Source of the DNA: a virus
Length of the DNA stretch: 22,004 nt
Reading direction: 5' to 3' (one strand)
Virus record (IMG/VR): IMGVR_UViG_3300032304_000819
Location: 1 to 22,004 of that record
The translations under genes were made by a program, and so were the position numbers. The notes beneath the pieces were generated by a model. It ran no database searches. It was not told the origin of the DNA and saw only the letters and a list, made by a program, of their open reading frames with translations. This document shows, one piece after another, positions 3,792 to 22,004 of this stretch. Position 1 is the first letter of the stretch. Every line of letters begins with the position of its first letter.

Positions 3792-4496
3792 ATGTCAAAC
3801 GTATTTAATATTGAAGAATATAAACAAAAAATATTTAATAAACTTGAACCTAGTGGTTGGGGTAGAGTTCTTAAACCTTTTATATTTAGTATAGAATTTG
3901 AAAAGATCTTAACAGATCTCTACAATCTAGCAAATGATGGTAAAAGGTTTACTCCTACATTAAAAGATGTTTTTAAAGCATTTGAGGAGTGTCCATATGA
4001 TGAACTTAAAGTGGTTATAGTAGGACAAGATCCATATCCTACATTAGGTGTAGCAGATGGTATTGCATTTAGTTGCAGTAAATCTGAAAAAGAACAACCT
4101 TCATTAAGATTCATTCTTGATGAAGTTGAAAAAATGTACCCGAACGGGTATGAGAGACCTTTAGATTTGTCAAAATGGACCCGACAGGGTATACTTTTGA
4201 TGAATACAGCTTTTACAACTGAAGTTGGTAAGATAGGTAAACACTATGAAATATGGGCTCCATTTGTAGCTTATATATTTGATTACCTTAAAAACTTTCA
4301 TCCAGGTTTAGTATATGTGTATATGGGTAAAAAATCTCAGGAGTGGGCAGACATGTGTGGAGAAAATTGTACTAAATTTATGGTCTCACATCCTGCAAGT
4401 GCTGCTTATAATGGTAGCAAATGGGATTCTAAAGGTGTCTTTCAAGAAGTTAAAGACACTGTGTATCACTTATATAACTATAAAATTATCTGGTAA
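3792..4496 (+). CDS. ung: uracil-DNA glycosylase, family 1
   Basis: A 234-aa protein with the family 1 uracil-DNA glycosylase signatures: the water-activating motif GQDPYP (residues 78-83, catalytic Asp at 80), the uracil-binding LLMN (135-138) and a C-terminal SHPASA (199-204), which stands for the usual HPSP minor-groove loop with His200. It removes uracil from DNA by cutting the N-glycosidic bond. The length matches the family. It is the first gene of the rightward replication block and is coupled by TAATG to the next gene. UDG next to replication genes is familiar in crAss-like phages. Its likely role is repair of deaminated cytosine or misincorporated dUMP in phage DNA, or processing of host DNA; the choice is inference. 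Confidence 0.95.
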   Translation: MSNVFNIEEYKQKIFNKLEPSGWGRVLKPFIFSIEFEKILTDLYNLANDGKRFTPTLKDVFKAFEECPYDELKVVIVGQDPYPTLGVADGIAFSCSKSEKEQPSLRFILDEVEKMYPNGYERPLDLSKWTRQGILLMNTAFTTEVGKIGKHYEIWAPFVAYIFDYLKNFHPGLVYVYMGKKSQEWADMCGENCTKFMVSHPASAAYNGSKWDSKGVFQEVKDTVYHLYNYKIIW

Positions 4497-5098: not shown

Positions 5099-6106
5099 AT
5101 GACAAAACTATTTAATGGAGCAAGACATTTGCTTCCTGTTAGTGAAAGAGAGAGTTTAGAAAAAGGTCTTCTCAAGATAAAAGCAAAAAGAGAAGGTAGG
5201 ATACCTGCACTAATTAGTGCGTGGCCTAAGTTCAATGATGCTTTTTGTGATGGACTTGAGTGGAGAACAATAACTGTAGTAGGTGCACGACCAGGCACGG
5301 GGAAAACTTTATTTATGGAACAGTTGGTATCTGATATTATTAAACAGAACCCTGACCAAGACTTTAGAGTCCTTAAGTTTCAAATGGAAATGGTTGATGA
5401 AACTAGTGCAATTAGAAAGTTCGGTCTGATTACTGGTGCTGATTACAATACATTAATGAGTAAAAATGGCAATTTGGTAGACAAAAAGTTATTTCAAAAG
5501 TGTGTAGATTATTACAAAGAATCTGCAGACAGTGATGTGATTAATGTTGTCTATGATGTATGTACTGTCAATGAAATGTGTGCCACAATTCATTATGAAT
5601 GTGAGAGACACAAAAAACCTGATGGTACCTACAGAAACATACTTGTTACCATAGATCACTCTGCTCTATTTAAGAATGATGTAGGACAAAAAGACAAATT
5701 TGATATGCTAGGTGCATTGGGTGAGGCCTTGACCCAAATGAAGAAAAATTATCCTGTAGCATTTGTTGTTCTAAGTCAATTAAATAGAAACATTGATGAC
5801 ACTAAGAGACAAGTAGAAGCCAATTACGGTAATTATGTATTAGATTCTGACATTTATGGTTCTGATGCTTTATTACAACATGCTGATGTGGTTATTGGTA
5901 TTAACAAACCTTCTATCAGAAAGATTAAGAAATATGGTCCTGAGAAGTTTTTGATTGAAGATCCGGATACACTAGTATTCCACTTCTTAAAATCTAGAAA
6001 TGGTCTCACAAGAATCAGTTTCTTTAAACTTGATAGAACAACTATGAGAATCATAGAGATACCTACACCAGCAAGAGAAACAACACAAAAAATACAAGTA
6101 AATTAA
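5099..6106 (+). CDS. DnaB-type (SF4) replicative helicase
   Basis: A 335-aa protein made mainly of the RecA-like motor core. Walker A is GARPGTGKT (62-70), a Walker B strand is ILVTIDH (181-187), the H3-type SQLNR lies at 226-230 and the KSRNG arginine-finger region at 298-302. These are the marks of hexameric 5'-3' DNA helicases of the DnaB/gp4 group. The protein is shorter than cellular DnaB and lacks the N-terminal primase-interacting domain; only about 40 residues precede the motor. The separate primase is encoded at 8208. It sits between a possible loader gene (15-nt gap) and a hypothetical gene, in the operon from UDG to SSB. Confidence 0.92.
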   Translation: MTKLFNGARHLLPVSERESLEKGLLKIKAKREGRIPALISAWPKFNDAFCDGLEWRTITVVGARPGTGKTLFMEQLVSDIIKQNPDQDFRVLKFQMEMVDETSAIRKFGLITGADYNTLMSKNGNLVDKKLFQKCVDYYKESADSDVINVVYDVCTVNEMCATIHYECERHKKPDGTYRNILVTIDHSALFKNDVGQKDKFDMLGALGEALTQMKKNYPVAFVVLSQLNRNIDDTKRQVEANYGNYVLDSDIYGSDALLQHADVVIGINKPSIRKIKKYGPEKFLIEDPDTLVFHFLKSRNGLTRISFFKLDRTTMRIIEIPTPARETTQKIQVN

Positions 6107-6723: not shown

Positions 6724-7446
6724 ATGAGTATTGTACTTCCAACTAAAAAAGTAAAGGCAGAAAGAGTTAATCCTAAAAGATTGATTATCTATTCAAAGCC
6801 TAAGACTGGTAAGACTACTGCATTTGCAGGATTAGATAATAATTTAATCTTTGACTTAGAGAATGGTGCTGATTATGTAGAAGCATTAAAGATCAAGATT
6901 AGTAGTCTACAAGAATTACTTGATGCAGGTAAAGCTATTAAAGCAGGTGGTTTTCCATATAAGTATGTTACAATAGATACTGTAACTGCATTGGAGGATA
7001 TGATTGGTCCTTTGGCTATTAAACTTTACCGTCAAACTAGCATGGGTAAGAACTATGATGGTGACAATATATTGTCCTTACCAAATGGTGCAGGATATTT
7101 ATATTTAAGACAAGCTTTCTTTCAAGTTTTAGATTTTATTGATACTTTAGCACCCCATATTATTTTATCTGGTCACATTAAGGACAAGCAGGTAGATGAT
7201 AAAGGTGAGATGGTAATGTCTGCAAATATAGATTTGACAGGTAAAATTAAATCTCTTATTTGTGCCAATGCAGATGCAATTGGTTATATGTATAGAAAAG
7301 GTAATAAAACCATATTATCTTTTAAAACAAGTGAAGAAGTCACTTGTGGTGCTCGTCCAGAGCATTTAAGAAATGAAGAGATAGTAGTTTCTGAAATGAA
7401 TGAAAAAGGTGAACTTGAGTTTCACTGGGATAAAATTTATGTATAA
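6724..7446 (+). CDS. Sak4-like RecA-fold ATPase (AAA_24 type)
   Basis: A 240-aa protein with Walker A SKPKTGKTT (24-32), a Walker B-like YVTIDT (81-86), and a strand ending ILSGHIKD that supplies the polar sensor residue. The short RecA core with 'P-TGKTT' and no DnaB-like linker is the pattern of Sak4/AAA_24 phage ATPases, known as single-strand annealing or strand-exchange helpers working with a cognate SSB. The next gene downstream is the SSB, in keeping with this pairing. It begins one base after the preceding stop. Catalysis and exact partner are inferred from family knowledge. Confidence 0.88.
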   Translation: MSIVLPTKKVKAERVNPKRLIIYSKPKTGKTTAFAGLDNNLIFDLENGADYVEALKIKISSLQELLDAGKAIKAGGFPYKYVTIDTVTALEDMIGPLAIKLYRQTSMGKNYDGDNILSLPNGAGYLYLRQAFFQVLDFIDTLAPHIILSGHIKDKQVDDKGEMVMSANIDLTGKIKSLICANADAIGYMYRKGNKTILSFKTSEEVTCGARPEHLRNEEIVVSEMNEKGELEFHWDKIYV

Positions 7447-8207: not shown

Positions 8208-9185
8208 ATGATTTCAACTAAGAATATTATATCTGATTTGGAGGACGTACCCAGAGAATGGGTATTTGAGTATTATTTAAATTTAAAGGAAAAACTTATT
8301 GGTCAAGACATAAAGATGCTTTCTGCATTTAATGTAAAGGACAAAGTTCCTAGCATGTTTATCTATCGCAATGGGGATTACTATAAGTTTAAAGATTTTT
8401 CTTCAGGATTTCAAGGTGATCATATTGAACTTGTCAGACATTTATTTAATTATGATGCAAGATTCAAAGCAGCAGATAAAATTATCCGTGATTATCAAGA
8501 GTATGTAAAATATAACGTACCTGCAGAAAGAGAACCCATTAAATTTCATGATAAGTTTAAAGTTGTAGACTATGAGATGAGACACTGGAATTCCCAAGAT
8601 TCTAAGTTTTGGACAAGTTTTAGGATTGGTTCTACACTTTTGGCCAAGTATAATGTAGTGCCCCTGGCATACTTTACTATGGAAAAGAAGGAAGAAGATG
8701 GTTCTATAACTTCATTTAAGTTTAGCAAGCCGTATCTCTATGGTTATTTCCGCCAGGATGGTGAGTTATACAAAATCTACATGCCCAAGAATCTAGATAA
8801 AAAGTTTATCAAGGTTCAGAATTATGTTCAGGGTATAGATCAGTTAACTTATGAAGCCAAGTATTTGGTCATTACATCCTCTCTAAAGGACTTAATGTGT
8901 TTTAATAAGCTTGGTATAGGTAATGTAGAATGCATTGCACCAGACAGTGAGAATACTATGATAGGTGAGTCAGTCATGACAAAACTGAGTAAACGGTATT
9001 TTAAGACAATTATACTGTTTGATAATGATGAGCCCGGTATTAAGGCTGCTCAGAGATATCAAGATAAGTATGGTTTTAGCTATGTAGTCCTGGATATGTC
9101 TAAGGATCTATCTGACTCTATAAAAGACCATGGTATTGAAGCTGTTAGAGATAAATTATTACCTTTATTAAAACAAGCACTATGA
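8208..9185 (+). CDS. DnaG-type primase with Toprim domain
   Basis: A 325-aa protein. Residues about 35-85 mirror the CHC2 zinc-ribbon layout of DnaG ('VPSMFIYRNGDYYKFKDFSS' then 'GFQGDHIELV') but contain none of its cysteines. The Toprim domain spans about 215-305, with VITSSLKD (221-228) in the place of the usual Glu-Gly-x-x-Asp loop, the metal-binding FDNDEPG (271-277) and KDLSD (299-303). It should synthesise RNA primers for the phage replisome with the DnaB-type helicase. Loss of the Toprim glutamate is unusual but phage and virus primases with T-x-SLKD loops exist, to my knowledge. It overlaps the next gene by four bases (ATGA). Confidence 0.85.
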   Translation: MISTKNIISDLEDVPREWVFEYYLNLKEKLIGQDIKMLSAFNVKDKVPSMFIYRNGDYYKFKDFSSGFQGDHIELVRHLFNYDARFKAADKIIRDYQEYVKYNVPAEREPIKFHDKFKVVDYEMRHWNSQDSKFWTSFRIGSTLLAKYNVVPLAYFTMEKKEEDGSITSFKFSKPYLYGYFRQDGELYKIYMPKNLDKKFIKVQNYVQGIDQLTYEAKYLVITSSLKDLMCFNKLGIGNVECIAPDSENTMIGESVMTKLSKRYFKTIILFDNDEPGIKAAQRYQDKYGFSYVVLDMSKDLSDSIKDHGIEAVRDKLLPLLKQAL

Positions 9186-9607
9186 GTTGGAAGTATAAAG
9201 GTAAAGAGTTTGATGAAGCATGCATACCACAAAATGGTATTGGTTTTATTTACATTATGACTGCTATCATAGATGGTAAGTCTGTTGCATATATTGGTAA
9301 GAAAAACTTTTTTGCTAATATAAAGAGACCAATGGGTAAGAAAGCTTTGGCTATGTCTACAGATAAGAGACTAAAGAAATATACCCGGGAGCTCAGACCT
9401 GACTTCATGAAGTATTATAGCAGTAATAAAACTCTTAAAGATGCTCACAAAGCAGGAGTTGTTATCAAAAGAGAGATCTTGATGATATGTTACTCAGCAA
9501 TGGAATTGACTTATCAAGAAGTAAAGCACCAGTTTAAATATGAAGTGCTTGAGAAAGAAGAATATCTGAATGGCAATATTCTTGGCAAATTCTTCCGTTC
9601 TAAATGA
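9182..9607 (+). CDS. GIY-YIG-like endonuclease
   Basis: A 141-aa protein coupled to the primase by an ATGA overlap. Residues 19-40 hold the split signature 'GIGFIY ... AYIGKK', the first two strands of the GIY-YIG fold. Downstream, 'DFMKYYSSNKTLKDA', 'KREIL' and 'ELTYQEVKHQFKYEVL' followed by 'YLNGNI' match the pattern of small phage GIY-YIG-like nucleases, where the helix Glu and a late Asn serve the active site. It may act in recombination, repair or host-DNA breakdown, or as a stand-alone homing-type nuclease. The coupling with primase makes a housekeeping replication role more likely than mobility. Confidence 0.78.
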   Translation: MSWKYKGKEFDEACIPQNGIGFIYIMTAIIDGKSVAYIGKKNFFANIKRPMGKKALAMSTDKRLKKYTRELRPDFMKYYSSNKTLKDAHKAGVVIKREILMICYSAMELTYQEVKHQFKYEVLEKEEYLNGNILGKFFRSK

Positions 9608-9633: not shown

Positions 9634-9638
9634 TTTTG

Positions 9639-9646
9639 TATATTTG
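9639..9646 (+). promoter_or_regulatory. Bacteroidetes-type -7 box (TATATTTG) for the homing endonuclease
   Basis: TATATTTG fits the Bacteroidetes TAnnTTTG consensus and ends four bases before the ATG at 9651, so the transcript would be leaderless or nearly so. No clear TTTG element is seen about 19-20 nt upstream. The same box-to-ATG spacing recurs before the MazG gene. Confidence 0.42.
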
Positions 9647-9650
9647 TTCT

Positions 9651-10523
9651 ATGAGAACACAAACAGGAACTTATAGAACATACACAGATATGTTAATAGC
9701 TTTACCTAAGATTGGTAAACTTCAAGTAGTAGAATTATCACATAAAAACAAATGGGGTGCTTATTATATTAAGTGTCAATGTGACTGTGGTAATATTACA
9801 ACTACAGATTTTTCTTCTTTGAACAAGTCTAAAGCACAATCCTGTGGTTGTTTACAAAGAGAAGCTGTTAAGAATACTGGTACAAAAAACAGGAAGTACA
9901 CAATTGATGTAGATAAACTAGTTAATAATGATATAACTGCCTATATAGCAGGTTTATATGCTGCAGATGGTTCAAATGAAAAATCTGCTATTTCAATTGG
10001 TTTACAAAGTACTGATAAAGATATACTTGAAAAAATAAGTAATTACTTTAATTATACAGGACCTTTATACACAATAAATAGATCTAAGAATAATGAAAAA
10101 GATCAAGTAAGACTAACAATCTCTGATAGTTCATTTAGAAAGTTTTTTGAAGAAAGAGGTATTGTAAAGAACAAAACACTTGATTATCAAGTTCCAGATC
10201 TTTATTCACATAATCCTCATTTTTGGAGAGGAATGATTGATGGTGATGGCTGTATATTTAAGTATGAAAAACAGTACACAACTTATGGTGTATCTTTAGT
10301 TGGTACAAAACATACTATTGATAAATTTAAAAAGTTTTGTGAATTTATCTTAGATAAACATGTTAAAGTTAAACCTTATAAAATTAAATCTGCTATAGAA
10401 GTTTATTCAATAAACTTTGTGGGTAAGATGTACTTACCTCTATTGAATGCTCTTTATGAAGATTTAACAAATCACATGTATATAACAAGGAAGTACAATA
10501 AGTACTTGGAGATTATTAACTAA
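9651..10523 (+). CDS. LAGLIDADG homing endonuclease with Cys-rich N-terminal domain
   Basis: A 290-aa protein; ATG 9651 is preferred over a TTG at 9636 because a promoter-like TATATTTG box sits just upstream. Residues 42-67 contain C-x-C-x-CG then, 19 residues on, C-x-C ('CQCDCG', 'SCGCLQRE'), the zinc-finger-like N-terminal module seen in phage AP2/HNH-type endonucleases. Two LAGLIDADG helices follow: YIAGLYAADG (98-107) and FWRGMIDGDG (191-200), each ending in an acidic catalytic residue, so one chain makes a pseudo-dimeric nuclease. It is free-standing, not inside an intron I can see, and breaks the even run of replication genes. It is therefore likely a mobile insertion that may cut phages lacking it. 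Confidence 0.9.
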   Translation: MRTQTGTYRTYTDMLIALPKIGKLQVVELSHKNKWGAYYIKCQCDCGNITTTDFSSLNKSKAQSCGCLQREAVKNTGTKNRKYTIDVDKLVNNDITAYIAGLYAADGSNEKSAISIGLQSTDKDILEKISNYFNYTGPLYTINRSKNNEKDQVRLTISDSSFRKFFEERGIVKNKTLDYQVPDLYSHNPHFWRGMIDGDGCIFKYEKQYTTYGVSLVGTKHTIDKFKKFCEFILDKHVKVKPYKIKSAIEVYSINFVGKMYLPLLNALYEDLTNHMYITRKYNKYLEIIN

Positions 10524-11680: not shown

Positions 11681-12102
11681 TGATTTTTGACAAAGAAGAA
11701 ACAAAGAACTTGTTGAACATGCTACGTTCAACAGATGATGAGAATTCAGTAGTAGCATTTCAGGCCCTTGAGGGTGTTGATGTAAAAAAGTATTCGGGAG
11801 AATTAATTGTATTATACAAGTTTGGTAAGAGGAATATGGCAATTTGGGAGAAACAAGCTCCTAAATGTCATAAGCACATTGCTAAATTACTGAGCCCATT
11901 TGCTAAAGATGGAGGTAGTGAGTTAAGTACAGGATCATGTTTGTCTGCAATGACAGCAAACAATACAAGTAATCAAGCTATTGAACTCTTTATGGAGTTA
12001 TTTACAGATAGTATGATTGGCTTCCTAGGTCAGATGGGTTATCCTGCTGACAAATTTGAAATTAATATAAAATTAAAGGATGGACAAGGTACAGAGTCTT
12101 AG
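11680..12102 (+). CDS. hypothetical companion of the VWA/MoxR pair, 140 aa
   Basis: ATG 11680 shares a base with the preceding stop and the 3' end overlaps the VWA-metallopeptidase gene by 23 nt, so the two are probably co-translated. The product is helical, with 'VVAFQALEGVDVKKYSGELIVLY', a 'HKHIAKLLSPFAKDGG' stretch and a C-terminal half with 'LFMELFTDSMIGFLGQMG'. No family is recognised. Tight overlap with the VWA gene suggests that it is a third subunit or adaptor of that module. Confidence 0.7.
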   Translation: MIFDKEETKNLLNMLRSTDDENSVVAFQALEGVDVKKYSGELIVLYKFGKRNMAIWEKQAPKCHKHIAKLLSPFAKDGGSELSTGSCLSAMTANNTSNQAIELFMELFTDSMIGFLGQMGYPADKFEINIKLKDGQGTES

Positions 12103-13267
12103 TAAAACAGCCAAAGATTTAATGTTGAGAGAGCCCTATTACGGGTTCTTTCTCATTATGTTGAATAAGCTATGGAGTAAAAAGGTACCTACTGCAGGTG
12201 TCAGTAAGAACGGTATCAATTATCAGTTAGTGGTAAATGATACCTTCTGGGAGGGATTGAGTGAAAACCATAGACTTGGTTTACTCAAGCATGAATTATT
12301 GCATATTGCATTTGGTCACCTTACTACTGTATTCAAGTTCAGTGATAGAAAGTTGGCTAACATTGCTATGGACATGGAGATCAATCAGTATATTGATGTA
12401 AATTATCTACCTGAAGGTGGTATCATGATTGATGACTATGCTGAACTTAATCTTGATAGAAAAGCAGGTGCTAGATATTATTATGATAAACTTAAAGAAG
12501 CAAAAGATGAGAAAGATCAGAATGGTACAAGTGGTTCTCCAGAGTTTGATAAGTTGTGTGACCAAATGGACTCAGGGGATGGTGAGGGTTTACCAGATCA
12601 TAGTACATGGGACGAGTTTGAGAATCTTAGTGAGGCTGAACAAAAGCTCATTGAGAAACAACTACAGAAAGTTCTTGGAGATGCAAAAGAACAAACCATT
12701 AAAAAGAGAGGATCAATTCCCGGAGAAATTGAAGGGGTCATTGTAATAGATGAGATAGTTGCACCTAAGTTTGATTGGCGTGGATACATGAGAAGATTTA
12801 CTGGTATAAGCACTAAAGTCTTTACTAAAAAGATTAGGAGAAAAGAGAACAGAAGATTCTCTGACAATCCGGGTCTTAAGATAAAGATGAGACAACACAT
12901 GTTATTGGCTATTGACACTTCAGGTTCAGTAAGTGATGATGAGCTCAAAGAATTTATGAATGAGATTCATCATATCTACAAAGCAGGTGTTGATATTACT
13001 ATAGTGCAGTGTGATACCAGTATCCGTAGTATTGAACCTTATAAAGGTAAGAATGACCTTAAAGTACAAGGAAGAGGTGGGACAGAATTTGATCCCGTCT
13101 TAGATTATTATAATGCAAACAATAAGAAATATACAAGCCTAGTATATTTTACAGATGGAGAATGTGATGCAAATGTAAAACCAAAAGGTAATGTCCTTTG
13201 GGTTATATCAGAGAGATCAGAATTAAATGAAGACCTACCAGGCAAGGTGATTAAATTAGAACTATAA
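12080..13267 (+). CDS. VWA-like metallopeptidase (COG3864/DUF2201 type)
   Basis: A 395-aa protein. The N-terminal part carries a zinc-metallopeptidase motif HELLHIAFGH (71-80: H71, E72, H75 and H80) and 'AMDMEINQYI' (96-105), typical of predicted VWA-linked metallopeptidases. A linker rich in Asp, Gly and Glu (about 140-175) follows. The C-terminal part is a von Willebrand A domain with MIDAS DTSGS (279-283), RGGTEFDP (332-339) and YFTDG (356-360). Such proteins act as partners of MoxR-type AAA+ ATPases, which is exactly the next gene, 12 nt downstream. The HExxH may be catalytic or structural; the target is unknown. Inference: an ATP-driven remodelling or protease machine. Confidence 0.9.
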   Translation: MDKVQSLSKTAKDLMLREPYYGFFLIMLNKLWSKKVPTAGVSKNGINYQLVVNDTFWEGLSENHRLGLLKHELLHIAFGHLTTVFKFSDRKLANIAMDMEINQYIDVNYLPEGGIMIDDYAELNLDRKAGARYYYDKLKEAKDEKDQNGTSGSPEFDKLCDQMDSGDGEGLPDHSTWDEFENLSEAEQKLIEKQLQKVLGDAKEQTIKKRGSIPGEIEGVIVIDEIVAPKFDWRGYMRRFTGISTKVFTKKIRRKENRRFSDNPGLKIKMRQHMLLAIDTSGSVSDDELKEFMNEIHHIYKAGVDITIVQCDTSIRSIEPYKGKNDLKVQGRGGTEFDPVLDYYNANNKKYTSLVYFTDGECDANVKPKGNVLWVISERSELNEDLPGKVIKLEL

Positions 13268-13279
13268 AAAACAAAGGTT

Positions 13280-14449
13280 ATGAATCAAGTACAATTGAAC
13301 GTAGAAGAATTAAAAGATTTTATCAAACACATGGTTAATAATAACCAACACATTCAGTCTGAAGGAAAAGTTCCTGTGGCTATTAATATTGAGGGTGATG
13401 CAGGTCTAGGTAAGACTTCTGCTATCATGCAGTTGGGTAAGGAAATGAACATGCAAGTTGTAAAACTTAATCTATCTCAGTTAGAAGAATTAGGTGACTT
13501 AGTAGGTTTTCCTGTAAAAGAATTTCAGATTGAAAATGCAGAAGGTAAAAGTAAATGGATTAATGAAGCACAGATTGGTGCAGCTCAGAAAGCCGGTTTC
13601 AAGATTGTAGATAAAAGAATGTCTCATGCTGCTCCTGAGTGGATTCAAGGTAAAGGTGAGGGTGGTTTCCTAGTATTGGATGACTATACTCGTGCTGACC
13701 ACAGATTTATGCAAGCAACTATGGAGATCTTAGATAGACAAGAATATGTATCATGGAAGCTACCTAAGAACTGGCATGTTATCTTGACTACTAATCCAGA
13801 CAATGGTGACTATAATGTTACTTCTCTAGATGTAGCTCAGAAGACTAGATTTGTATCTGTTGAATTGAAGTATGATGTAAATGTGTGGGCTAAGTGGGCA
13901 GAGAAAGCAAACATTGATGGTAGATGTATCAACTTTATGTTGATGAATCCAGAACTTGTGACTCAAAGAATTAATCCAAGATCTGTAACTACATTCTTTA
14001 ATGCTATTAGTTCTATTCCTAAGTTTGAAGATAACTTACCTATTATCCAAATGATTGGTGAGGGTTCAGTTGGAGCTGACTTTAGTTCTATGTTTACCAT
14101 GTTTATTAATAACAAGTTGGATAGAATCATTAGTCCGGAAGATATCATGACTAAAGATGAGCAGTATGTTATGAACAGCTTAGTATCTGCAGTAGGTCAA
14201 GATAATGACTTCCGTGCAGATTTATCCAGTGTAATTGCAACCAGAGTAATTAATTATTCTTTGGTACATGCTAGTACTAAAACTGTTTCAGATCAAATGA
14301 TTAACCGTTTGGTTAAATTGACTACAGACTGTAAAGCATTTACTGATGACTTGAGATATTTCATGATTAAAGAAATAGTTAATGGTAACAAACTTAAATT
14401 CAGCAAATTAATGATGAATAATAGTGTTGTGAAGATGGCTGTAAAGTAA
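13280..14449 (+). CDS. MoxR-like AAA+ ATPase
   Basis: A 389-aa protein with Walker A GDAGLGKT (39-46), Walker B FLVLDDYTRA (130-139), sensor 1 at LTTNP (169-173) and an arginine-finger-like TRF (189-191). The layout of 'GFPVKEF' before the Walker B and the later 'INPRSVTTFFNAI' helix is that of MoxR/RavA-type AAA+ chaperones, which unfold or remodel complexes with a VWA partner. Here the partner is the gene immediately upstream. In other systems such pairs assemble metal centres or rearrange protein complexes; the phage substrate is unknown. A hairpin terminator follows at 14506. Confidence 0.9.
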   Translation: MNQVQLNVEELKDFIKHMVNNNQHIQSEGKVPVAINIEGDAGLGKTSAIMQLGKEMNMQVVKLNLSQLEELGDLVGFPVKEFQIENAEGKSKWINEAQIGAAQKAGFKIVDKRMSHAAPEWIQGKGEGGFLVLDDYTRADHRFMQATMEILDRQEYVSWKLPKNWHVILTTNPDNGDYNVTSLDVAQKTRFVSVELKYDVNVWAKWAEKANIDGRCINFMLMNPELVTQRINPRSVTTFFNAISSIPKFEDNLPIIQMIGEGSVGADFSSMFTMFINNKLDRIISPEDIMTKDEQYVMNSLVSAVGQDNDFRADLSSVIATRVINYSLVHASTKTVSDQMINRLVKLTTDCKAFTDDLRYFMIKEIVNGNKLKFSKLMMNNSVVKMAVK

Positions 14450-14542: not shown

Positions 14543-15817
14543 ATGAAACATATATTATATTTCCACCTTGACCTAGATACACATTGGTCAGCCAATGATG
14601 ATAATGAAGTAACTTGTGAAATTGAATCTTGGTTAGGCACCTTTACAGAAGATAGTAACAATTTATTAAACATTGTTAAAACACCATATGTACCACAACA
14701 AGGTGATAAGATTTATTTCTTACCAGAAGTTAGTGTACCAAGAGTAAAGTTTAAGAATGTATCTGTAGAATATGGTATTAAAACAGTAAGAGACATTAAA
14801 CAAGCTAATGTTTTCTTTGGTTGTTCTAAAAGTGCACACCATATGACTACATATAAGTGGCCCTATAAATTACCAACTTCAGAGTTGAAGGAGTTTATAC
14901 AGCTTATTGATCACAGATTTGATGGACACACTAGAGATAAAATTGAAACTGCTCTTGAGTTTTATGAGAACGAAGAGGTTGCAATATCTTGGACTATCAT
15001 GAATAATATTAACGGTGCTATTGCTAATAGTAAATGTTCTAAATATAGTCAGAGAGTAGTAATTGTTGATACTGATTACAAAGAAGAATATGAGCACTTA
15101 CAATCTCTTACTATTTATGATGAGTCTTGTGTTATTGATATTTTGAATGGTGAAGATGCTACAGTTATTGATGAAGAAATGTATGAGCATCTTGGTGAAA
15201 TGTTTAAGAGTTCAGATACAGATAATCATGTACTAGCTATGGAGATCATGGCAAATTCTAAGTACACTGAGAGTTTAATCTATCTTGAGTTACTATTTCT
15301 TCACTATTCATATAGGATTATGGATATTCATTCTAAGAACCATGTTAATTTTAAGTCTCTTGTAAGTTACTTGGGTAAGAACATGAGATCTTTAAGTACT
15401 GATATTAATGATATAGGTGATAGTTTAGTTAACAAAGGTCAATTTACTGTAGATAAGGTAGAAATTATAATGAAACATTTAAGTCACCGTATTGAGCATT
15501 ATGGTAATCAAAAATATTTTACTGTAAAGACTATTACTGTACATCCTGATCATATTGCAAGCTTAGGTACTAATTATACTTATAGTGTACAAGATGACTA
15601 TGTTGGGCCTGAATTACCTATTGAGTTTGATGAGGAAGAAGAAAGAGTAGCAGTTCCGGAAACTGAAGCTATTTTTACTGAAAAAGAAGATGCAGAAATA
15701 GAAGAAATGATTGTTGAATTAGATAATAAATCCACAGAAGTTACTCTAGAAACCGAACTTTTACCAAATAATCCTCAAACAACTAAAAATGACAGCATTG
15801 ACCTTGACTGGTTCTGA
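14543..15817 (+). CDS. hypothetical protein with SSB-like acidic C-terminal tail, 424 aa
   Basis: Starts 12 nt after a terminator, at the head of a new operon. Residues 1-345 look globular with many aromatic and charged residues but no recognised catalytic motif; a few His ('KSAHHMTTYKWP' at about 96-107) could be functional. Residues about 355-424 are a low-complexity acidic tail rich in Glu and Asp, ending in DLDWF. That acidic tail plus aromatic tip resembles the C-terminus of bacterial SSB or T7 gp2.5, the handle for partner proteins. The 3' end overlaps the PD-(D/E)XK nuclease by 29 nt. A replication or recombination role is inferred from tail and neighbours. Confidence 0.78.
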   Translation: MKHILYFHLDLDTHWSANDDNEVTCEIESWLGTFTEDSNNLLNIVKTPYVPQQGDKIYFLPEVSVPRVKFKNVSVEYGIKTVRDIKQANVFFGCSKSAHHMTTYKWPYKLPTSELKEFIQLIDHRFDGHTRDKIETALEFYENEEVAISWTIMNNINGAIANSKCSKYSQRVVIVDTDYKEEYEHLQSLTIYDESCVIDILNGEDATVIDEEMYEHLGEMFKSSDTDNHVLAMEIMANSKYTESLIYLELLFLHYSYRIMDIHSKNHVNFKSLVSYLGKNMRSLSTDINDIGDSLVNKGQFTVDKVEIIMKHLSHRIEHYGNQKYFTVKTITVHPDHIASLGTNYTYSVQDDYVGPELPIEFDEEEERVAVPETEAIFTEKEDAEIEEMIVELDNKSTEVTLETELLPNNPQTTKNDSIDLDWF

Positions 15818-16808
15818 TGAACTAGTACAATTCTACAACAAAAAATTCTATTTTAGCTACAGTAGTATTAATAAACTATTGTTCTCACCTAGAATGTTTT
15901 ACAGTCATTATGTTTTGAATCAAAGAGAGGACAGTACGGACGCGCACCTGGTAACAGGGCGTGTCCTACACTGTTTATTACTTGATCCACATACATTTGA
16001 TGACCAGTTTATGTTACTACCTGGTAAGTTACCAAGTGGTAACAACAAACAAATTATTGATAATATTTTCAAATATCATTGCACAATTGGAAATGATTCT
16101 TTAAATTTGAATGATTACTCTGATGAGATACTCACACAACTACTCACAATCAACTTACACCAATCCTTAAAAACAGATGAGCAAAGACTTGCTAAGATTC
16201 TGACCGAGGAACACAAAGATTACTTTACATTTCTTAAAACAAGTCTTAATAAGACTGTAGTAGGTGAACCTACTTTGAGTGGCTGCAAAGAAAGTGTTGA
16301 AGTCTTAAAACAGAATCAATCTGTTAGACAATTACTACAACTTGATAGGACTGAGGAAGATACTCATATCAAAGTTTATAATGAGTTGCCATTACAAGTT
16401 GATATTGAATATGTTCCGTTTGGTTTTAAAGGTATATTAGATAATGTTGTTTTGGATTATGATTCCAAGACAATATTTATTAATGACCTTAAGACAACAG
16501 GTAAGAACTTAACAGACTTTCCGGATGCTGTTAAGTTTTATAAGTATTGGATCCAAGCTGTTATTTATAATAAATTGGTATTTTACAAATTTATAAAAGA
16601 CTTACCTGATTGGGTTGAATGGAAAACTGTAGTTACATTTATTGTAATAGATAAATACAATCAAGTTTACCCATTTCAAGTATCACAAGAAAGTCTAGAG
16701 ATTTGGTTACATGACTTTGAAGATGTGGAGGATACATTAAAGTATCACTATGAAAACAAAGATTTCACGTTACCCTATGAACTAGCTATTGGTAATGTAA
16801 AACTGTAA
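15789..16808 (+). CDS. PD-(D/E)XK nuclease, RecB/RecE-like
   Basis: A 339-aa protein with the order of Cas4/RecB-type nucleases: 'SYSSINKLLFSPRMFYSHYV' (23-42), GRVLH (57-61, the conserved Gly...His), an acidic residue in 'YNELPL' (E199), then GILDNVV (215-221, Asp218), INDLKTTG (231-238, Asp233 and Lys235) and QAVIY (256-260, the Q-x3-Y motif). This is a divalent-metal exonuclease or endonuclease core that would process DNA ends for recombination, in line with the Sak4-like ATPase and SSB. ATG 15789 lies within the previous gene. An insertion of about 100 residues separates GRVLH from the core. Confidence 0.88.
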   Translation: MTALTLTGSDELVQFYNKKFYFSYSSINKLLFSPRMFYSHYVLNQREDSTDAHLVTGRVLHCLLLDPHTFDDQFMLLPGKLPSGNNKQIIDNIFKYHCTIGNDSLNLNDYSDEILTQLLTINLHQSLKTDEQRLAKILTEEHKDYFTFLKTSLNKTVVGEPTLSGCKESVEVLKQNQSVRQLLQLDRTEEDTHIKVYNELPLQVDIEYVPFGFKGILDNVVLDYDSKTIFINDLKTTGKNLTDFPDAVKFYKYWIQAVIYNKLVFYKFIKDLPDWVEWKTVVTFIVIDKYNQVYPFQVSQESLEIWLHDFEDVEDTLKYHYENKDFTLPYELAIGNVKL

Positions 16809-17847: not shown

Positions 17848-19752
17848 ATGAAGACACATTGGGTAATGGATTATGAGACTCTTAGCAATTGTTTTATTGC
17901 TGTGTTTGAGTCAGTTAAGTCTGAAGACCGTGAGATATTCACAGTTCATGCAGACAAGAATGAAATAACAGAATTTATTGGATTTCTAGAAAGAAACATT
18001 GCCTATAATGAATGGCATGTATCTTTTAATGGTTTAGGATTTGACAGTCAGATTACTGAACACATTCTTAGAAATAAAGATCAATTAATTTATGGTTATG
18101 GAAATGGTGAAGAAATTGCAAGATGGATTTACAGTAAAGCACAAGATATAATTGGTAGACAGAACCGTCAAGAGTTCTTAGAATTTGCTCCAAAGGACCT
18201 ACAGATACATCAGGTAGATGTCTTTAAACTTAATCACTGGGATAATGCAGCTAAGAGAAGTTCTTTAAAGTGGATTCAGTATACAATGGATTGGCACAAT
18301 ATAATGGACATGCCTATTCATCATACTCAGACAATTACTGCTGATCAGATTCCGGAGATTATTAAATATTGTATTAATGATGTTAAGTCTACTAAGGCTA
18401 TCATGCAACTCAGCAAAAGTCAGATAGAACTTAGGAAAACTTTGACTGAAGAGTATAATATTAATTTGTTCTCTGCATCTGAGCCACGGATCTCTAAAGA
18501 GTTGTTCTTACATTTCTTGAGTGGTCACACTGGAATTAGAAAGTGGGACTTAAAGCAAATGAGAACACATAGGAACAAGATAGTAGTTAAAGATATTATT
18601 CTAGATTATATTCAATTCAAGACAGCAACATTTGAGAATCTATTACAGAAGTTTCAAGATGTGGTTATCTATCCCGGACAAACTAAAGGAGGTTTTAAAT
18701 ACTCTGTACAGTATAAAGGGGTAAAGACTGATTATGGTCTTGGTGGTATACATGGTGCTAGGTCTGCTAAGGTATATGAGTCTACAGAAGATATGATTAT
18801 CATGACAAGTGATGTTACCAGTTTCTATCCTAATCTAGCTATTAGAAATGGATGGTCTCCGGCACACTTACCTAAGGAAGAATTCTGTGATCTATATGAA
18901 TGGTTCTTTGAAGAAAGAAAGAAGATACCAAAGTCTGATCCCAAGAATTATGTATACAAGATTATCCTAAACTCAACCTATGGGTTGAGTAATGATGAGA
19001 ATAGTTTCTTGTATGATCCTGAGTTTACTATGAGGATTACTATTAATGGTCAGTTGAGTTTGACTATGTTGTATGAGATGATCTGTGAAGAGATTCCAAA
19101 TGCTATCCCACTAATGCAAAATACAGATGGTCTAGAGACTATGATCCCGCGGGAATATGTTGATAGATATATGGATATCTGTGCAAGATGGGAACAGAGA
19201 ACTATGCTACAGTTAGAACATGACACTTATAGTAAGATAATTCTGGGTGATGTAAATAATTACATTGCTATTACAGAAAATGGTAAAGCTAAGAGTAAAG
19301 GTAGATTTGAGTATAAAGATTTAGCTCTTCATAAGAACAAGAGTTTTCTCATTATACCAAAAGCTATTCAAGCTTATTTTGTTGACGGGATTAAACCTGA
19401 AGACTATTTAGCACAGAACCAAAACATATTTGATTATTGTGGTGGTGTAAAGATTAAAGGAGATTGGGAGTTCTATGAACACTCTATTGTTAATGGAGAA
19501 CATTCTATTAAACATTTACAACACACCATAAGATATTTTATATCCAATTCCGGGTCAAAGATTATCAAGAAAAATAATACTGACGGGAGAGAAATCCAGG
19601 TAGAGGCTGGGAAGTGGATGCAAACTGTCATGATTGACTATGTTGAGAAAGAGTTTGCTGATTACAACATAAACATGAAATATTATTTAGATAATATTTA
19701 CAAAGAAATTAGGTCTTTAGAACCTATTACAAACCAATTAAAATTGTTTTAA
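17848..19752 (+). CDS. family B DNA polymerase
   Basis: A 634-aa polymerase with an N-terminal proofreading exonuclease: Exo I DYE (8-10), Exo II NGLGFD (61-66) and Exo III YCIND (174-178). The polymerase motifs follow: A with SDVTSFYPN (321-329, catalytic Asp322), B KIILNSTYG (371-379) and C QNTDGLE (424-430, Asp427). A YGLGGIHGA (296-304) precedes motif A. In motif C the first acidic residue of the usual DTD is Asn, while the essential second Asp is kept. It is shorter than T4 or archaeal PolB, in the range of crAss-like PolB. The last five residues are QLKLF, a beta-clamp-binding motif (see findings). It is followed two bases later by the DUF932-like gene. Confidence 0.93.
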   Translation: MKTHWVMDYETLSNCFIAVFESVKSEDREIFTVHADKNEITEFIGFLERNIAYNEWHVSFNGLGFDSQITEHILRNKDQLIYGYGNGEEIARWIYSKAQDIIGRQNRQEFLEFAPKDLQIHQVDVFKLNHWDNAAKRSSLKWIQYTMDWHNIMDMPIHHTQTITADQIPEIIKYCINDVKSTKAIMQLSKSQIELRKTLTEEYNINLFSASEPRISKELFLHFLSGHTGIRKWDLKQMRTHRNKIVVKDIILDYIQFKTATFENLLQKFQDVVIYPGQTKGGFKYSVQYKGVKTDYGLGGIHGARSAKVYESTEDMIIMTSDVTSFYPNLAIRNGWSPAHLPKEEFCDLYEWFFEERKKIPKSDPKNYVYKIILNSTYGLSNDENSFLYDPEFTMRITINGQLSLTMLYEMICEEIPNAIPLMQNTDGLETMIPREYVDRYMDICARWEQRTMLQLEHDTYSKIILGDVNNYIAITENGKAKSKGRFEYKDLALHKNKSFLIIPKAIQAYFVDGIKPEDYLAQNQNIFDYCGGVKIKGDWEFYEHSIVNGEHSIKHLQHTIRYFISNSGSKIIKKNNTDGREIQVEAGKWMQTVMIDYVEKEFADYNINMKYYLDNIYKEIRSLEPITNQLKLF

Positions 19753-19753
19753 A

Positions 19754-20926
19754 ATGCCAAAGAAAATTCAAGATTGCACAAAAGCACATTTGATTAGTAT
19801 TGACTTACCGGTTCATGGTGATAGCTACACAGTTATTAGCCATGAGTCAGTGATGGATTATGCATATACAGAACTTGCTAATGCAGGTTTTGGTATTGTA
19901 AGTGAAGAGTATAGAGCAACTGCAGATGGTCAGATTGCTCAGGGTATCTATAGATTGAATTACAATAGTGACCCAGAATTATCTATGATGTTTGCTTGGA
20001 CAAACAGTTATAACAAACAAGTAAGATTTAAGTGTGGTATTGGTGCATATGTGAACCAAACCGGCACCGTGATGGTATGTGGAGACATGGGAAGTTGGGC
20101 CAGAAAACATACTGGTACAGCAGATGCAGAGACAATACAGACTATTAAGGATCAGATTACTGATGCTACAATGTATTATAATCAGCTTGTATCTGACAAA
20201 GAAGCTATGAAAGATATATCTATGAACAAAAGAAGACAAGCACAGATGCTTGGTATCCTGTTTGCAGAATATCAGATTCTTACTACTGAACAAGCTAGTA
20301 TGATAAGAAACCAAATGGATAGACCGAGTCATGTATTTGATGATTCTAATAGTTTATGGGCTTTTTATAATTATGTAACTACTGCACTGCAGCATTCTCA
20401 TCCTAAAACATGGATGGAAGATCAACGTGTCTTACATTATTTTATATCTAGTGTTAATAACTTTAGCACTCCACAACCTGCACCTCAAGTTCAAACAGTT
20501 GTAGAAGCTGTGGTAGATCCATTAACTACAAATTATGGTCAACCAGAAAACCAGTTAAATCTTTTGACTGAAATTGAGAAAGCAGAAGCTGAGGAAACTT
20601 CATTAGCATTAGAACCTAATTTAGATTTAAGTGATTATAATAATGCTTTAGTTATTAATGATTCTAATGTAGAAGAAGTACTTAATGAAGCTGAGGAAAG
20701 TTTTATAGAGTTAGAAAACCAAGATGACTATGTCACAGTAGAGGAGTATATTAAATATACAGACTCTGTAGGTAATACTTTTGAAACTCCTGTAGTTTCT
20801 CCGTGTGTTGCACATGAATTTGAACCTGAACAAGAAGAAGATGTCTTTGCCAAAGAAGACAACTTTGATTTTGATTTCAGTGAAGATGCTGATGAAGAAG
20901 AGGATGCTATCCCCGACTTCTTTTAG
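19754..20926 (+). CDS. DUF932-like protein with acidic SSB-like tail, 390 aa
   Basis: Residues 1-235 resemble the DUF932 group: 'YRATADGQIAQGIYRLNYN', then 'TNSYNKQVRFKCGIGAYVNQTGTVMVCGDMGSWARKHTG' (split here by position: about 83-121), the S-Y-x-K...G-G-A-x-V core of that family, seen in phages and plasmids and of unknown function. Residues about 240-390 are low-complexity, Glu/Asp-rich, with QLNLL at 267-271, and end in the acidic-aromatic tip IPDFF. Its place right after the polymerase argues for a replication role, perhaps ssDNA- or clamp-associated; this is inference. It is followed by a terminator at 20947. Confidence 0.75.
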   Translation: MPKKIQDCTKAHLISIDLPVHGDSYTVISHESVMDYAYTELANAGFGIVSEEYRATADGQIAQGIYRLNYNSDPELSMMFAWTNSYNKQVRFKCGIGAYVNQTGTVMVCGDMGSWARKHTGTADAETIQTIKDQITDATMYYNQLVSDKEAMKDISMNKRRQAQMLGILFAEYQILTTEQASMIRNQMDRPSHVFDDSNSLWAFYNYVTTALQHSHPKTWMEDQRVLHYFISSVNNFSTPQPAPQVQTVVEAVVDPLTTNYGQPENQLNLLTEIEKAEAEETSLALEPNLDLSDYNNALVINDSNVEEVLNEAEESFIELENQDDYVTVEEYIKYTDSVGNTFETPVVSPCVAHEFEPEQEEDVFAKEDNFDFDFSEDADEEEDAIPDFF

Positions 20927-21386: not shown

Positions 21387-21398
21387 CTCCCCTTTTTT
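21372..21398 (+). terminator. terminator between convergent MazG gene and large minus-strand gene
   Basis: AAAGGGGAG (21372-21380), loop ATTTAA, then CTCCCCTTT (21387-21395) is a 9-bp perfect stem with T's to 21398. The TAA of the MazG gene (21384-21386) sits in the loop. The stem is symmetrical so it could also stop minus-strand transcription, but the T tract on that side is weaker. Confidence 0.88.
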
Positions 21399-22004
21399 AT
21401 TGTGTCTTGGCTTGATTCTTAATCATATTCTCAAACTGAGTAACAGGGTCTCCTGTAGATCCGGTAAATCCAAATGTTTTACCAAGTTTGTTCCAGATTT
21501 TTAACTCACCTTTTTCTTTCCAAGAATATGGTCCAGTATCTCTTTTGTACCTATCCATTTCAGAGAAGGTTAAGAAGTCTAATACATCTCCGAAGATATC
21601 AATATAAAGTACGACTGTATTATACCAAGCACTTGTTGTTTGAGTGATCATTTTTGTATAGTCATCAGCACCGAAGTTAACCCCTTTTACTTGTGGTAAT
21701 GGAATAAATGCAGAAGTTTCACCTTGTACACCCATCATCAAAAGTAACATGTGATTAGATAAGAATCCGTAAGTATTATACGTATCCTGATTTATTGCTC
21801 CTGACTTTGCTCTAAGTTTTTTCCATTTCTCATCATCATCTGGATCAAATCCAAAGATCATTAATCCAAGTAATGAAAGACCTATTGCAAAGAATGCTTC
21901 AGCAGATGCTTTTCTTACAGCAGTTTTTTCTTCATCAGTAAGGTAGTTGTAGTTTCTAAACCCAGTCTTCAATGTTTTTAACATTACTTGGAAAGCTGTA
22001 ACAT
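21397..22004 (-). CDS. C-terminal part of a large protein continuing beyond the window (partial)
   Basis: The frame stops at TAA 21399-21397 and stays open to the window edge; in-frame codons before the Met at 21984 read ...VTAFQV, so that Met is probably internal. About 200 C-terminal residues are visible. They contain a hydrophobic stretch ('AFFAIGLSLLGLMIFGF'), an acidic loop ('DPDDDEKW'), a second moderately hydrophobic stretch near 'LLLMMGV', a 'WYNTVVLYIDIFGD' segment and a final 'PYSWKEKGELKIWNKLGKTF' with 'TGSTGDP'. I recall this style of ending from very large crAss-like phage proteins encoded opposite the replication block, but the identity is unproved. Confidence 0.72.
   Translation of the reverse strand, partial: VTAFQVMLKTLKTGFRNYNYLTDEEKTAVRKASAEAFFAIGLSLLGLMIFGFDPDDDEKWKKLRAKSGAINQDTYNTYGFLSNHMLLLMMGVQGETSAFIPLPQVKGVNFGADDYTKMITQTTSAWYNTVVLYIDIFGDVLDFLTFSEMDRYKRDTGPYSWKEKGELKIWNKLGKTFGFTGSTGDPVTQFENMIKNQAKTQ

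Follow-up and report, generated by a model that had tools for sequence, protein, structure and literature searches.

In phages T4 and RB69, the family B replicase gp43 is tethered by its C-terminus to the ring clamp gp45. In Bacillus subtilis, the last five residues of the replicase PolC, QLSLF, bind the sliding clamp DnaN (Kd about 4 uM); this peptide could not be removed and appears essential (PMC12309361). Insertion-sequence transposases dock on the beta clamp of their host by a C-terminal QLxLF, an arrangement that arose repeatedly (PMC4549789). For crAss-like phages, which count among the most abundant human gut viruses, a 2023 review called the mechanism of DNA copying unknown (PMC10136315), and a clamp is not mentioned in the crAss-like literature that we examined.

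Here, we analyzed a stretch of 22,004 nucleotides of DNA from an uncultured phage (IMG/VR record IMGVR_UViG_3300032304_000819, positions 1 to 22,004), referred to below as the window, which encodes a family B DNA polymerase (PolB) ending in QLKLF. An earlier note on this DNA had proposed that the polymerase may recruit the host DnaN clamp, or a clamp encoded elsewhere, for processivity, an interpretation that the sequence comparisons presented below suggest to be well supported.

Each of the described systems resembles this locus only in part. PolC has the same pentapeptide as 54 of the 80 relatives of the window polymerase, in the same last-five-residue place and in a replicative polymerase. 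However, PolC is a family C enzyme, from an unrelated polymerase family, and it is cellular and uses its own clamp, whereas the window PolB is viral and would take its clamp from a different organism. Escherichia coli Pol II is, like the window polymerase, a family B enzyme with a C-terminal QLxLF, but it is a cellular repair polymerase from a different PolB clade. Because nearer relatives of the phage lack the tail, the tails of Pol II and of the phage enzyme do not have a common origin. The transposases, which belong to mobile elements, use QLxLF for targeting and not for the processivity of a replicase. A further comparison is provided by the phi14:2 and cr60_1-like PolBs, which belong to the same family as the window polymerase (phrog_1252) and are found in crAss-like phages. 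In the phi14:2 type, the motif (QLNIF) lies in an internal loop, whereas the cr60_1 type has it at the C-terminus of a polymerase that is only about 28% identical.

The polymerase and its C-terminal tail

The polymerase gene (positions 17848-19752, + strand) encodes a protein of 634 amino acids that matches phrog_1252 with an E value of 4e-141. AlphaFold returned a model with a mean pLDDT of 91.5 and a pTM of 0.86, and Foldseek matched it to archaeal and eukaryotic PolBs (E about 4e-13). Invariant or nearly invariant alignment columns mark motif A (DVTSFYPNLAI, 18811-18843, +), motif B (KIILNSTYGL, 18958-18987, +), and motif C (NTDG, 19120-19131, +), the last of these a crAss-like variant of DTD. 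The divergent motif C of this group of phages has already been noted (PMC7544198). Together, motifs A, B, and C and the PolB fold identify the reading frame as a family B DNA polymerase.

The product ends in ...SLEPITNQLKLF, also given as ...KEIRSLEPITNQLKLF-stop. Translation confirmed QLKLF as its last five residues (residues 630-634), encoded by CAA TTA AAA TTG TTT at 19735-19749 (+) and followed by TAA. The comparison drawn in the earlier note with E. coli Pol II, which ends in QLGLF, is also correct. The last alpha helix of the fold spans residues 610-624 (19675-19719, +), as assigned by DSSP on the model, and the alignment shows it to be the end point of tail-less relatives: the PolBs of cultured relatives (about 33-35% identical, mostly from phages of Proteobacteria) stop just past this helix, whereas those of the window clade run on into a short linker and QLxLF. 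The linker of the window polymerase is LEPITN (residues 624-629; 19717-19734, +), which is variable at positions -8 and -7 in the conservation profile. Since the tail-less relatives end right behind the last helix, QLxLF appears to be an appended tail, outside the fold.

In the AlphaFold model, a pLDDT below 50 is found in residues 629-634 only, the last six of the protein. The tail is exposed, and the burial in the polymerase fold that the earlier note had named as a possible refutation was not seen. We also rejected a structural tail packed on the fold, as the tail is the sole segment of a confident model with such low values. As in clamp clients generally, the pentapeptide has the form QxxLF, is conserved above its surroundings, and lies in a segment that is flexible and exposed as judged by pLDDT. 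In the model, a linker followed by a low-pLDDT QLxLF is the anatomy expected of a docking peptide.

Conservation and recurrence of the motif

The closest relatives of the window polymerase, 80 IMG/VR records that are 74-92% identical to it, all have Q[L/Y][S/K/T]LF as their last five residues, directly before the stop codon (54 QLSLF, 19 QLKLF, 5 QLTLF, and 2 QYxLF). All 13 further distinct PolBs reached from the most divergent member end in the same motif, so the check on close homologues suggested in the earlier note found it neither absent nor shifted. These window-clade relatives are metagenomic records, which may be incomplete, and many are close kin and hence non-independent. After thinning to <93% identity, Gln-1, Leu-4, and Phe-5 of the motif were invariant in 34/34 rows, and in the same rows, position -7 was the most variable of the last 40, with -8 among the most variable. 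Lysine at the third position of the tail departs from the S/D consensus, yet it is present in 19/80 relatives. Given the composition of the window, QLxLF has a probability of about 1.3e-5 per site and is expected 0.09 times in 6865 residues; the chance that any of the 30 window proteins ends in it is about 4e-4. In the same loci, the motif ends none of the other 964 ORFs that encode at least 120 amino acids. A chance match of QLKLF was rejected on the basis of these composition odds, the conservation in 80/80 relatives, and its absence from the 964 other ORFs.

Similar peptides are found in other crAss-like polymerases. Among gut and rumen cr60_1-like PolBs, 81 of 84 end in QLxLF/W, sometimes with a few additional residues; the three exceptions are one truncated reading frame, one protein ending in ...EQSLFW, and one ending in ...KELSLF. 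In more distant Suoliviridae, cr7_1 and cr124_1 have a C-terminal QLTIF, and cr55_1 has a C-terminal QLNLF. The marine phi14:2-like PolBs (L554-L573, L111, and L112) are without a C-terminal tail. Instead, they contain Q-x-x-I-F (QLNIF, QMNIF, QTDIF, and other variants) in a loop that lies some 60 residues upstream of the C-terminus, which was found in 22/22 loci, some of them near-duplicates; the window clade is without that loop. NQLNLF forms the end of a further PolB (L574) that shares about 31% identity with the phi14:2 type. The candidate clamp-docking peptides, whether in a tail or in a loop, are exemplified by SLEPITNQLKLF, SLEPINNQLSLF, EELQPRQLELF, and SSQLNIFDLV.

Other branches of the family are without such a peptide. 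TaPaz-like PolBs showed no C-terminal motif in 80 loci, a few of which are truncated ahead of the C-terminus, nor did their last 130 residues contain a conserved motif, although QGH[I/L]F occurs there in 6/73. PolBs typical of Proteobacteria phages have neither the tail nor the loop motif as a conserved feature. In a maximum-likelihood PolB tree built without the last 12 residues, the window clade is sister to the phi14:2 group (SH-aLRT 91) and lies far from the cr60_1 group. The C-terminal motif undergoes at least four changes on this tree, a count that includes the degenerate L401 and Sphingomonas phage Lucius, suggesting that the motif was gained, lost, or moved more than once. A clamp-type motif, as recognized from sequence, is a recurrent and relocating feature of crAss-like PolBs. 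We found no description of it in the open-access literature searched; the 2011 survey of viral replicases by Kazlauskas and Venclovas may contain one.

Phage and host sliding clamps

In agreement with the earlier note, which had seen no sliding clamp gene in the window, none of the protein families matched there in PHROG and Pfam is a clamp. T4 encodes its own clamp and clamp loader; none was found in the window clade (PF02916, n = 26; phrog_947, n = 23). In 26 long relatives (52-122 kb), PF02768 gave no match above the cut-off, and the gp45-like family PF02916 gave none. A weak PF02768 match in G008 (E 0.0017, 14 bits, with an in-frame stop) was judged to be noise. The DnaN-like clamps annotated in related phages likewise escaped PF02768. 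Therefore, we used phrog_947, the PHROG that contains these clamps, and only the negative result obtained with it is strong. In control searches, phrog_947 detected the clamp in 5/5 phages with an annotated clamp beside PolB and in 13/14 cellular genomes, and it gave no match in 23 window-clade records or in 22 other records from cr60_1-type, phi14:2-type, and other tail-less phages. The evidence that the phages have no clamp of their own thus appears strong, not absolute, as records may be incomplete and a more divergent clamp could escape the profile. As no phage clamp was found in the long relatives, the host clamp is favored over one encoded elsewhere, the second option in the earlier note.

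The situation differs in Nipunavirus/Septimatrevirus-type phages, whose PolBs are distant kin of the window polymerase (23-26% identity) and have a phrog_947 clamp gene directly upstream, whereas in the window clade, no clamp was found and the tail is present. A DnaN-like clamp gene lies directly upstream of PolB in EC151, JG012, PaeW3, Lucius, and Axy19. Sphingomonas phage Lucius (L102) encodes a DnaN-like clamp in addition to a PolB that ends in QVDMFA, indicating that a C-terminal clamp motif can coexist with a phage-encoded clamp. The DnaN-like clamp of Pseudomonas phage vB_Pae_W3 (L098) itself ends in an SSB-like tail, EDDIPF. Tail-less TaPaz- and Nitrincola-like PolBs are found without a phrog_947 clamp, which shows that polymerases of this family can function when the C-terminal motif is missing.

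Clamp genes upstream of related PolBs, the QVDMFA of Lucius, and the presence in the window of several proteins without a known family leave some room for a tail that binds an unrecognizably divergent clamp or processivity factor of the phage instead of host DnaN. We consider this improbable. The profile that finds 5/5 such clamps finds 0/23 in the clade, and the tail motif resembles the bacterial clamp motif. In addition, ORF 14543-15817, which lies in the same block of genes and was the best unknown candidate examined, was folded and rejected as a hidden clamp because it gave no clamp fold match (best E 0.09), and its body changes much faster than the polymerase (about 30-45% versus 75-80% identity in most relatives).

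The host was approached through the affinity of the phage. G021, a 122-kb relative whose contig carries L073, and Cellulophaga phage phi14:2 have TerL, portal, and MCP in common, in the same order, and also share a giant transcription protein, helicase, primase, uracil-DNA glycosylase (UDG), and PolB. The virion genes of G021 are only 20-29% identical to those of phi14:2, and gene roles were assigned by location and size on the phi14:2 map. These common genes place the clade among the crAss-like phages (Crassvirales), the window itself being the replication side only, and the crAss-like affinity guessed in the earlier note holds. A Shine-Dalgarno-like sequence was found at 1/30 gene starts in the window, and A/T-rich DNA precedes the starts. 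Scarcity of Shine-Dalgarno-like sequences is typical of Bacteroidota. A search for the window polymerase in bacterial genome contigs gave no match. The crAss-like affinity and the scarcity of Shine-Dalgarno-like sequences suggest a host in the Bacteroidota, at the level of the phylum only, and the "Bacteroides" of the earlier note was too specific.

DnaN is encoded by a single copy in 15/15 Bacteroidota genomes and is 23-28% identical to E. coli beta. The residues H175, L177, P242, V247, M362, and P363 (E. coli numbering), which we take to be positions of the peptide pocket of E. coli beta, are kept in all 15. Among the 14 Bacteroidota genomes read, 11 encode a Pol III alpha with QVSLF or a variant close to it, and in Bacteroidota Y-family polymerases, the IMS_C domain ends with QINLF or QINMF. 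With similar motifs in Bacteroidota polymerases and a largely conserved DnaN pocket, the phage motif appears to be written in the dialect of the host itself.

Proposed role of the tail and the surrounding genes

We consider it highly probable that the tail is a beta-clamp-binding motif that anchors the phage replicase on the DnaN of its Bacteroidota host for processivity. Computation established the QLKLF motif and how well it is conserved, the predicted disorder of the tail, the lack of a detectable phage clamp, the recurrence in crAss-like phages, and the motifs and pocket of Bacteroidota; from these, we infer binding, the host clamp as the partner, and processivity as the benefit. In an infected Bacteroidota cell, the host clamp loader would place host DnaN on DNA, and the flexible C-terminal QLKLF of the phage PolB would dock in the peptide-binding pocket of DnaN, which could confer processivity on a small viral family B polymerase. 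The working replisome would be chimeric, with the phage supplying the helicase, primase, and polymerase and the host supplying the clamp and clamp loader. Most likely, this crAss-like phage borrows the host clamp to copy its DNA.

Two neighboring proteins of the window also end in conserved aromatic tails (...FF and ...D[D/E]WF), suggesting that C-terminal peptide docking is used in this replisome. The QLxLF tail might thus be a true interaction motif with another partner, such as the helicase, the primase, or an SSB-like protein, as in T7-type acidic/aromatic tails. This seems to us very unlikely, as the tails of the neighbors are acidic, unlike QLSLF, and the exact Q-L-x-L-F, with S/D/E/T/K at position 3, and the Q-x-x-I-F in the loop of the sister lineage fit the logic of clamp binding. 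We give just as little weight to a tail that recruits host DnaN chiefly to outcompete host Pol III and shut off host replication, with processivity as a side effect: the tail is near the strong consensus, nearer than QVSLF, the usual motif of Bacteroidota Pol III alpha, but the clamp motifs of polymerases usually serve processivity (PMC12309361).

At the DNA level, the tail codons of the window clade are restricted, with Phe always encoded by TTT, Gln always by CAA, and the fourth codon being TTA in 79/80 relatives, and the ATG of the next gene follows the polymerase stop directly, within a few bases. As the AT-rich DNA at the start of the next gene includes these last codons, constraint on the DNA contributes to the conservation. 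That the conserved tail is a mere by-product of this translation start is hardly credible, since Leu-2 is encoded by three codons and stays Leu in 78/80 relatives, the cr60_1-like tails retain the peptide while using all synonymous codons and having no fixed downstream start, and a DNA constraint does not predict the match to QL[S/D]LF; conservation thus acts at the amino acid level as well.

Returning to the host clamp as the partner of the tail, our confidence is evenly divided on a wider generalization, namely that Crassvirales with a PolB and without a clamp replicate on the host sliding clamp. In these phages, the docking peptide would have been gained, lost, and moved (C-terminal in the window and cr60_1-like polymerases, in a loop in phi14:2), with dependence on the clamp kept, possibly under host clamp variation or clamp-centered defense. 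A conserved peptide for the host clamp would name the likely processivity factor of crAss-like phages and allow the question of their replication to be tested by means of a peptide and a single host protein. The host clamp may also be a factor that helps limit which bacteria support replication, and its use suggests why crAss-like phages can exchange polymerases and bring no clamp along. The cultured pair of phi14:2, with its internal QLNIF, and Cellulophaga baltica is suited to a genetic test.

The window also contains further genes of DNA metabolism. These encode a uracil-DNA glycosylase, which is a crAss-like core gene (3792-4496, +; PF03167, E = 1e-10; phi14:2 homologue, E = 2e-28), a DnaB-type helicase (5099-6106, +; PF03796, E = 4e-20), a Sak4-like/AAA_24 ATPase (6724-7446, +; phrog_124, E = 9e-30; PF13479, E = 1e-25), a DnaG-type primase with a homologue in phi14:2 (8208-9185, +; phrog_12622, E = 3e-23), and, by family profile matches, a PD-(D/E)XK exonuclease in a replication/recombination context (15789-16808, +). 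The replication block also contains adjoining mobile-type endonucleases, a SegE-like GIY-YIG and a LAGLIDADG enzyme (9182-9607 and 9636-10523). The LAGLIDADG gene is the only one in the window with a Shine-Dalgarno-like start and has no counterpart in the 122-kb relative. In the same block, a VWA-like/metallopeptidase (DUF2201) protein adjoins a MoxR-like AAA ATPase (12080-13267 and 13280-14449).

The gene behind the polymerase encodes a DUF932-like protein (19754-20926, +; PF06067, E = 1.6e-6) and starts one base behind the polymerase stop codon. Its disordered acidic tail, which ends in IPDFF in the window, is long and variable in length, ends in FF or F-x-F (DAIPDFF, EDDDAAFF, LQFEF) in 75 complete-ended orthologues, and recalls the acidic, Phe-ending tail of bacterial SSB. 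QLNLL in this protein was rejected as a second clamp motif, as a similar pattern occurs in 30/75 orthologues at shifting positions. The product of ORF 14543-15817 has a disordered acidic tail as well, which ends in [D/E]WF in 73/73 orthologues. Dual coding may account for some of this conservation, since the tail and the start of the next gene overlap. The protein is fast-evolving (about 30-45% identity in many relatives), with a confident, novel-looking core and no PDB fold match. Finally, the reading frame at 21397-21984 (-) is the C-terminal end of a larger protein and shares 31% identity with a 5.8-kb gene of G021. The latter adjoins the homologue of the giant protein of phi14:2, and the reading frame marks the border to the late genes.
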